From positions 2,170,001-2,234,000 of the forward strand of contig NZ_LOAJ01000001.1 of assembly GCF_001542905.1 (NCBI RefSeq): a DNA stretch of 64,000 nt, read 5' to 3'. Of this stretch, positions 14,995 to 49,950 are shown one piece after another. Source of the stretch: Halorubrum aethiopicum (GTDB lineage Archaea; Halobacteriota; Halobacteria; Halobacteriales; Haloferacaceae). A program made the translations under genes and the position numbers. Every line of letters starts with the position of its first letter. Position 1 is the first letter of the stretch. The notes below the pieces were generated by a model that was given only the letters and a program-made list of their open reading frames with translations, searched no databases and was not told where the DNA came from.

Positions 14995-15315
14995 CGAAGC
15001 AACGAGCGATCGCCGGAGCGGTGGCGCGCCGGTGAGTGCCGCGGAGCGGCACGAACCGCCCGCGAGGGACGCCACGAGCGCTTGAAAAGCGCGAGTGGCG
15101 AGGCTGGGGAGGCGTGAGGTGCGGGGCGGTACGGTTGGGTGGGACTCAAAGGGGCAGTCGCGAGGGCGACGGCGGCCGCAGTAAGCAGCGTGGCGCTACG
15201 CGCCACGGGCAGCCGGCGGCGGAGCCGCCGGCGACACCGCAGGAGCGAACGAAGTGAGTGACGAGGAGCACAGCAAGGCCCCCGAGCCGTCGCGACTGGG
15301 GCTTTGGAGATGTTC
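14995..15315 (+). ncRNA. Dispersed structured element, copy A (candidate ncRNA)
   Basis: This shares conserved blocks with copies at 37460 and 49602: GTGGCGCGCC (15021-15030), CGCGAGGGACGC, GGCTGGGGAGGCGTGAGG, ACTCAAAGGGGCAG and ACTGGGGCTTTGGA. Between the blocks are hairpins. Stem 1 is GTGCCGC/GCGGCAC (15036-15052, loop GGA). Stem 2 (15071-15099) is GCCAC, then GA, then GCGCTT with loop GAA and the exact complements, giving a GA/GA internal loop. A long-range helix pairs AGTCGCGA (15156-15163) with TCGCGACT (15290-15297). Extra GC hairpins lie at 15188-15233. Similarity to copy B continues past the core to about 15385. Short open frames inside it differ between copies and are not genes. Strand follows the order of blocks; transcription is inferred, not seen. 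Confidence 0.6.
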
Positions 15316-37373: not shown

Positions 37374-37914
37374 GCCGGCCGAATACCGAGAATAGGATCG
37401 GAGACGCCGTCGAGAGCTTTCGAGGGCGATATGTTTGTCACCCCCGTGATCGGTACAGACGAAGCAACGAGTGATTGCGGTGGCGCGCCTGCGAGCGCCC
37501 GGCAGGGCGCGAGCAGCACGCGAGGGACGCGACGACCGAAGCGGAGCGGAGGGAGTCGCGAGGCTGGGGAGGCGTGAGGTACGGGACGGTTGCGGTGGGG
37601 GCGGGATTCAAAGGGGCAGTCGCGAGGACGAAGCACGGCGCAGTAAGGACCGCAAGGAGTGAGCGGAGCGAACGACTGAGGACCGCAGCAAGCCGCGCGA
37701 GTTCTCGCGACTGGGGCTTTGGAGGTGTTCTCCGTGATCGTGGTCATCCACAAGCAACGTCCACATTTTCATCAGCCCGATCACTCACGAAACACCCGAT
37801 CTATAAGCACTATCGAGTGACCAACCGATCCGGACGGAAACGCCGACCGGAGAGCCGGGCGAGTGGGGGCCTCCCGTCGCGGGAGTTTATCACATCCGAG
37901 CGACAGTCGTAGCC
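37374..37914. other. Gap holding element copy B and its extension
   Basis: No gene is visible. The first 85 bases precede element copy B (37460-37730). Bases 37752-37816 match the extension after copy A. The last 60 bases before 37915 contain a GTTTATCACATCC stretch about 25 bases upstream, a good box A for the trans-sulfuration gene. Confidence 0.6.
37460..37730 (+). ncRNA. Dispersed structured element, copy B (candidate ncRNA)
   Basis: Same block order as copies A and C: CGAAGCAACGAG, GTGGCGCGCC (37480-37489), CGCGAGGGACGC, GGCTGGGGAGGCGTGAGG, ATTCAAAGGGGCAG, ACTGGGGCTTTGGA. Stem 1 is GCGCCC/GGGCGC (37495-37510). Stem 2 (37529-37559) has GCGAC/GTCGC outside, a GA/GA internal loop, CC/GG, and a GC hairpin inside. 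A hairpin at 37659-37673 again has GA/GA between GT/AC and GC/GC. The long-range helix AGTCGCGA (37618-37625) pairs with TCGCGACT (37705-37712). Strand is assigned by block order. No expression data. Confidence 0.6.
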
Positions 37915-49537: not shown

Positions 49538-49950
49538 TTATTCTCTTTCGGCGGCGGACTATTTCTGTCTGTGATCGAGGGTGTTCCTTTGCTATCGCGG
49601 TGAACACGTCCAAAGCCCCAGCCGCGACGACTCGATACGCTCGCTGCGCTCTTCGGTCGCTCACTTCGTTCGCTCCCTGCGGTGCTTGCGTCGCGCGTCT
49701 TCGTCCTCGCGGCTGCCCCTTTGAGTCCCATCCCGCACAGCACCGCAACCGCACCTCACGCCTCCCCAGCCTCGCGGCTCGCGGTTTCACCGCTCGCCGC
49801 GTCCCTCGCGGGCGGTTCGCGCCCTCCGGGCGCTCACCGGCGCGCCACAGCGCGAACTACCAGCTCTTCTCTCGGTGGTTCAGTCCATCCGGATCCGGCA
49901 GCCTCGGACGCGAGCCGTAGGTTTACCTGCGGCGGCCGGGAGGCGGTGAC
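49538..49950. other. Gap holding element copy C
   Basis: No gene is visible. The gap contains element copy C (49602-49860). Bases 49910-49926 (CCGTAGGTTTACC) include a box A about 30 bases before the peptidase ATG at 49951. Confidence 0.6.
49602..49860 (-). ncRNA. Dispersed structured element, copy C (candidate ncRNA)
   Basis: On the minus strand the order matches A and B: GTGGCGCGCC (49848-49839), CGCGAGGGACGC, GGCTGGGGAGGCGTGAGG, ACTCAAAGGGGCAG and GCTGGGGCTTTGGA. Stem 1 is GCGCCC/GGGCGC (49819-49833). Stem 2 (49774-49800) is GCGGC, GA, GCGGT, loop GAA, ACCGC, GA, GCCGC. The long-range helix reads AGCCGCGA/TCGCGGCT, where both bases of one pair differ from copies A and B, a compensatory change. 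It lacks the CGAAGCAACGAG upstream block. The orientation is opposite to that of A and B. Confidence 0.6.

Follow-up and report, generated by a model that had tools for sequence, protein, structure and literature searches.

The three copies found in the window (the whole stretch of 64,000 nucleotides that was analyzed) are members of an as yet unnamed family of RNA-like, folded elements. Halorubrum chromosomes carry between 16 and at least 150 members each, and the helices of the family have symmetric GA/GA internal loops. We consider it likely that these copies represent a dispersed structured-RNA element in which the GA-containing helices are architectural. The + strand of this intergenic element folds, probably as an RNA, over approximately 225 to 330 nt, in the order P1-P2, P3, G-rich core (conserved), GT-rich linker, and long P4 arm, the last with the closing helix CAAAG-GGG/GGG-CTTTG. 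At the GA/GA sites, tandem G.A steps, symmetric and most likely sheared, would let the helices run on without a break. Where such steps recur every two Watson-Crick pairs, in the P4 tip of Halorubrum and in P3 of other haloarchaea, they make up a GA ladder, which in most cases ends in a GNA triloop.

The preliminary description had placed GA on both sides of stem 2 (here P3) in copies A, B, and C, and these loops lay exactly where it had put them. The second hairpin to which it had attributed the same pattern (here the P4 tip) was likewise present in all three copies. Additionally, a third GA/GA loop, absent from that description, was found in P2 of every window copy. The coordinates are collected in Table 1.

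Table 1. Positions in the window of the three element copies and of their helices and conserved core
Feature	Copy	Positions	Strand	Remarks
Element	A	15020..15307	+	GGTGGCGCG to CTGGGGCTTTGG; nested two-hairpin insertion in P4
Element	B	37479..37722	+	
Element	C	49610..49849	-	
P2	A	15031..15057	+	GGT-GA-GTGCCGC-GGA-GCGGCAC-GA-ACC; GA/GA at 15034-15035/15053-15054; covariation
P2	B	37490..37515	+	TGC-GA-GCGCCC...GGGCGC-GA-GCA; GA/GA at 37493-37494/37511-37512; covariation
P2	C	49814..49838	-	GGT-GA-GCGCCC...GGGCGC-GA-ACC; GA/GA at 49835-49834/49818-49817; covariation
P3	A	15071..15099	+	GCCAC-GA(15076-15077)-GCGCTT-GAA-AAGCGC-GA(15093-15094)-GTGGC
P3	B	37529..37559	+	GA/GA at 37534-37535, 37553-37554
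P3	C	49774..49800	-	GA/GA at 49795-49794, 49780-49779
Conserved G-rich core	A	15099..15119	+	CGAGGCTGGGGAGGCGTGAGG
Conserved G-rich core	B	37559-37579		
Conserved G-rich core	C	49774-49754	-	
P4 tip	A	15245..15259	+	single complete GA/GA step, GC-GA-AC-GAA-GT-GA-GT
P4 tip	B	37655..37677	+	two-step GA ladder AGGAGTGAGCGGAGCGAACGACT; 37659-37673, GT-GA-GC-GGA-GC-GA-AC
P4 tip	C	49655..49677	-	two-step GA ladder GGGAGCGAACGAAGTGAGCGACC; GG-GA-GC-GA-AC-GAA-GT-GA-GC-GA-CC

The fold was supported by covariation. RNAalifold predicted 53 pairs in an alignment of 59 full-length copies (A1), 28 of them with two-sided changes. The pairs that it placed within the G-rich core were not counted as supported because their columns hardly vary, and 43 pairs were scored after these had been dropped. 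In this set, 97.1% of the cells were paired, 28 of the 43 pairs changed on both sides, and two-sided changed cells numbered 366, compared with 103.7 in shuffled alignments; kinship among the copies inflates such counts, and any swapping of whole hairpins between copies could mimic many independent compensatory events and inflate their apparent number. The covariation score was 0.412, against 0.154 in shuffles and at most 0.071 in slid controls, which keep the kinship and still stayed low, and none of 500 shuffles reached any of these measures. Thus, the copies show what is expected of a structured noncoding RNA, namely, covarying pairs on one strand. The GA/GA loops are a real, recurrent, and selected feature of this fold, and the pairs flanking them covary. 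The wobbles also identified the folded strand: G.U was far more frequent than A.C (94 versus 16; p = 1e-14), and the + strand is therefore the one that folds. Single-stranded DNA tolerates G.T wobbles too, so the RNA nature of this strand is likely, not proven. In a class-wide alignment (A3), the motifs GGCGCG, GCGAGGGA, GGYTGGGGAGG, and GGACTSAAAGGGGC were kept in most rows. The pair closing P4 was C-G in Halorubrum (ACTCAAAG/CTTTG) and G-C elsewhere (ACTGAAAG/CTTTC), a further compensatory change.

Several additional structural features were observed. Four conserved G-tracts (TGGGGAGG, GGGACT, AAAGGGG, and TGGGGC; e.g., window positions 15105-15154 and 15298-15301) could assemble as a G-quadruplex in a cytosol rich in potassium, and GGG stands opposite GGG in P4. 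The GT-rich linker of some copies (L240, L115, L127, and L132) holds an additional domain, TTCCCGC..GCGGGAG..GGAAGTCGCAGCCCGCGCAG..AGGACCGTCTTCC, that itself carries GA-stepped hairpins. Small two-hairpin modules are nested within the element, at junctions or in hairpin loops and in both orientations (window positions 15187-15235; also L009, L014, L018, L141, and L284). One example reads GCCGGC..GCCGGC-TGCCAGAG..CTCGCT, and another has a TGATGA linker; their own stems vary between copies and still pair.

The preference for GA/GA was strong. Over 156 copies, 419 of the 534 predicted 2x2 loops were GA/GA, compared with 48 of 283 in shuffles, a control that was used because the energy model itself favors GA/GA. 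The closing context was 5'-Y-GA-R-3' (pyrimidine 5', purine 3') at 292 of these 419 loops, a context that favors sheared tandem G.A pairs. In the source genome, 44 of 45 P2 stems and 42 of 44 P3 stems had GA/GA in a symmetric 2x2 loop with pairs on both sides, whereas among 129 P3 stems of other Halorubrum, 65 had GA/GA and 46 were uninterrupted helices of at least 7 bp; P2 and P3 stems were classed by a parser that errs at times in diverged copies. Additionally, P2 was fully paired, with no GA/GA, at one locus that is kept across species. No single GA site is indispensable, since P3 and P2 can both be fully paired in this way, and GA/GA is a strongly preferred yet replaceable step. GA/GA, whose invariance the preliminary description had proposed to check in a consensus, is nearly universal in P2 and P3 of the source genome but not in P3 of other Halorubrum. 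Free variation of the GA positions, which it had named as a refutation, was half borne out: GA/GA is strongly preferred, yet it can give way to full pairing in P3 and, at the one locus, in P2.

The preference is at its strongest in GA ladders, in which 2-bp rungs take turns with GA/GA, usually beneath a GNA loop. Counted at two or more steps, ladders occurred exactly twice in the window, in copies B and C, compared with 0.07 expected per shuffled window. They were present in 20 of 44 copies from the source genome and in 71 of 125 copies from other Halorubrum, but in none of 220 shuffled copies. In other haloarchaeal genera, a strict parser recognized P3 as a two- or three-step ladder in 17 of 45 copies, 13 of the 17 with a GNA loop. 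The rungs of these distant P3 ladders changed at one and the same position with pairing kept (GG/CC, CC/GG, GC/GC, AG/CT, CT/AG, AC/GT, and GT/AC), and overall the ladder length ranged from 0 to 3 steps.

The preliminary description had also suggested that the GA loops, like kink-turn-like modules, may be the binding site of a protein such as L7Ae. A kink-turn is defined by tandem G:A and A:G pairs and by a bulge of three nucleotides that, in one strand, immediately precedes the G:A pairs on their 5' side (PMC8191799). The tandem pairs, which are one part of this motif (PMC8191799), were present as a sequence pattern in the same 44 of 45 P2 stems and 42 of 44 P3 stems. The bulge was absent from P2, P3, and the ladders alike; the loops are symmetric 2x2 with bases paired directly on either side. 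Because the defining bulge is absent, a kink-turn or an L7Ae site is very improbable. An unconstrained kink-turn scan was discarded, as every bulge size scored when no register constraint was imposed. Compared with Kt-7-type kink-turns and L7Ae-bound RNAs, the element shares the tandem G.A pairs inside a helix and differs in that its symmetric loops recur every two base pairs and its helices are predicted to be straight rather than kinked. With tandem sheared G.A internal loops (5'-Y-GA-R-3') it has the 2x2 motif and mostly the closing context in common; however, here two or three loops are stacked with only two Watson-Crick pairs between them, under GNA caps and with covarying rungs. We know of no named RNA family that is built as a stacked GA ladder with GNA caps.

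The most likely role of the GA steps is architectural: they would provide stiff, purine-rich helices fit for a molar-salt cytosol and would show one groove surface at regular intervals, which plausibly docks a protein or another part of the RNA. Overlapping with this architectural reading is a more specific one, in which the steps are the binding site of a protein other than L7Ae: the ladder would be read by an RNA-binding protein of the haloarchaea, with the element as one half of a ribonucleoprotein. A regular, repeated, and strongly preferred noncanonical step with freely changing neighbors does resemble a recognition surface. However, single GA sites are replaceable by paired helix, the ladder can be as long as three steps or missing entirely, and no binding partner was identified, and we regard a dedicated protein site as possible but rather unlikely.

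The element was abundant and widespread. A BLAST search with copy A returned 71 matching pieces in the source genome, and a covariance model built on the 5' part (R1) gave 138 matches at E <=0.01, which merged into 129 loci. All of these loci were on the 3.05-Mb chromosome (69 on one strand and 60 on the other) at random spacing (coefficient of variation, 1.08), and R1 had no match on the two small contigs C2 and C3 (280 kb; approximately 13 expected, P of approximately 7e-6 if uniform). Copies were thin on the ground at approximately 1.5 to 2.2 Mb of this chromosome. The relatives were mostly Halorubrum, the genus of the window itself, and ten genomes of this genus each had between 16 and at least 150 matches; among the matches listed, all lay on one contig within each genome. 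A class-wide model (R2) matched 254 of 381 sampled Halobacteria genomes and 57 of 85 genera, and in a sample of the phylum, 23 of 246 genomes matched, all from the same order. A search of Rfam 15 at gathering and relaxed thresholds gave only chance matches for the element and a tRNA in one flank, and a literature search of open-licence papers yielded no paper on the element; its novelty is judged against these two sources. The main text of one paper mentions strain-specific noncoding RNAs in Halorubrum lacusprofundi without detail (PMC6011602).

Such dispersal raises the alternative that the element is mobile DNA, a nonautonomous transposon or REP-like repeat whose hairpins a transposase reads as folded single-stranded DNA, with GA/GA and GNA present for the great stability that they give to DNA hairpins. 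The gene context was examined for 159 copies with mapped flanks, with genes called by a simple home-made codon-usage script. All 159 were intergenic, and 66 of them lay between convergent genes, compared with 20% convergent pairs in the window (p = 3e-10); in co-directional gaps the two strands were equally represented (7 to 7 in the source genome and 26 to 26 elsewhere). The orthologous place of copy B was occupied in one relative (G170) and empty in three others (G008, G107, and G335), with approximately 5 to 40 bp between the matched flanks. That of copy C was occupied in G170 and G008; in these orthologues P2, P3, and the P4 tip had been swapped for other versions, mostly pairing and with the GA steps kept, and in the G008 orthologue hairpin modules had been inserted and P2 was shorter. 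In a low-copy genus, one copy was found antisense between two cobalamin-type genes, which by eye we take to be cbiF-like and cbiG-like, a position shared by five genomes (L217, L218, L222, L225, and L316), and therefore the element can persist for long; P2 was fully paired at this locus, while P3 and P4 differed strongly between species.

Mobility would account for the high copy number and random spacing, for the dispersal over 129 loci with empty orthologous sites for copy B, for the enrichment between convergent genes in either orientation, for the nested hairpin insertions, and for decayed copies that trail down to low scores. However, the conserved structure runs through the whole interior and is not limited to the ends. 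Plasmids, viruses, and small replicons are the usual gathering places of insertion elements, but the small replicons, the phage records, and the viral contigs searched contained no match, and the plasmids searched contained one weak match. Lagging-strand single-strand transposition predicts a local strand bias, which was not seen (63 of 129 neighbors were on the same strand). Several species have also retained the element at an identical position. A nonsystematic look revealed no transposase, and no target duplication was found, although the empty-site relatives, being approximately 83 to 90% identical over the flanking genes, do not allow element ends or target duplications to be fixed. Mobility can coexist with an RNA function, and we take it seriously as an explanation while holding it to be rather less than probable; the structured-RNA reading remains the one that we prefer.

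REP/BIME and MITE-like elements resemble the family in having many intergenic hairpin copies, mostly chromosomal, that are present or absent between species. The element differs from them in its size (225 to 330 nt), its conserved interior core, its multihelix fold under pairing selection, and the lack of a transposase link in the same nonsystematic look. Large structured RNAs of high copy number that go with mobile elements, HEARO among them, resemble the element in being large and RNA-like with many copies per genome, but the element has no Rfam family match and its neighboring genes vary by copy, with no constant nuclease gene adjoining. If the element is mobile, it would differ from known insertion elements by its interior fold and by being nearly absent from plasmids. 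An RNA-like family that is so abundant and supported by covariation across an archaeal class, yet outside Rfam, is unusual, and it can be put to the test directly in Halorubrum, which is cultivable. As a way of building helices in a potassium-rich cytosol, the GA ladder would be little known; it would be of use in RNA structural biology and in structure prediction, and searches for the family would have in it a compact signature. More speculatively, and with considerable doubt, the family could be an undescribed, haloarchaea-wide class of chromosome-borne structured RNA, with tens to more than 100 copies per genome in some genera, periodic GA-ladder helices, and G-tracts that may build a potassium-stabilized core. 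Such a class would have a role across the whole genome, as a ribonucleoprotein or an RNA machine, or else would be an RNA element that propagates itself.

The P4 3' arm, with approximately 30 nt, was repeated 0 to 4 times downstream of the element (e.g., L182, L187, L098, L091, and L236), and in Halorubrum the spacings of these units were nearly all multiples of three (48, 51, 54, 57, 66, and 69 nt), with ends that often read TTTATAA. Such spacings would suit a coding region in which the repeated unit specifies a short peptide repeat. On inspection, however, the unit keeps the letters GGG-GCT-TTG without synonymous drift and stops break the frame in several copies, and the peptide-repeat idea was rejected on these grounds; the lengths of the element, moreover, are free of any multiple-of-three constraint, and we give coding hardly any credence. 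The idea that the repeated 3' arm is CRISPR-like or belongs to a guide RNA was rejected, as the sequence between the repeats is largely conserved in Halorubrum.

Promoter-like boxes were found upstream of part of the copies (e.g., L060, L106, and L087), with TTATAAA approximately 17 nt and TATTTAAA approximately 48 nt before GGTGGCGCG, and in the source species a box, CAGTACAG, lay approximately 34 nt before GGTGGCGCG. These conserved boxes fit no single start site across copies, which counts against the RNA reading, and the TATA box at -17 was not accepted as the promoter, as the expected start site would land inside P1. Two genomes (G164 and G137) had tail-to-tail inverted pairs of copies approximately 300 to 400 bp apart (e.g., G164:C1:801027-801567 and G137:C2:54479-54945). 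In other families, a second, shorter repeat, GGACTGAAAGGGCGAG...CGAGGGCTTTCGAGG, occurred near copies of the element (L229, L235, and L237) and is perhaps a relative without the 5' domain.
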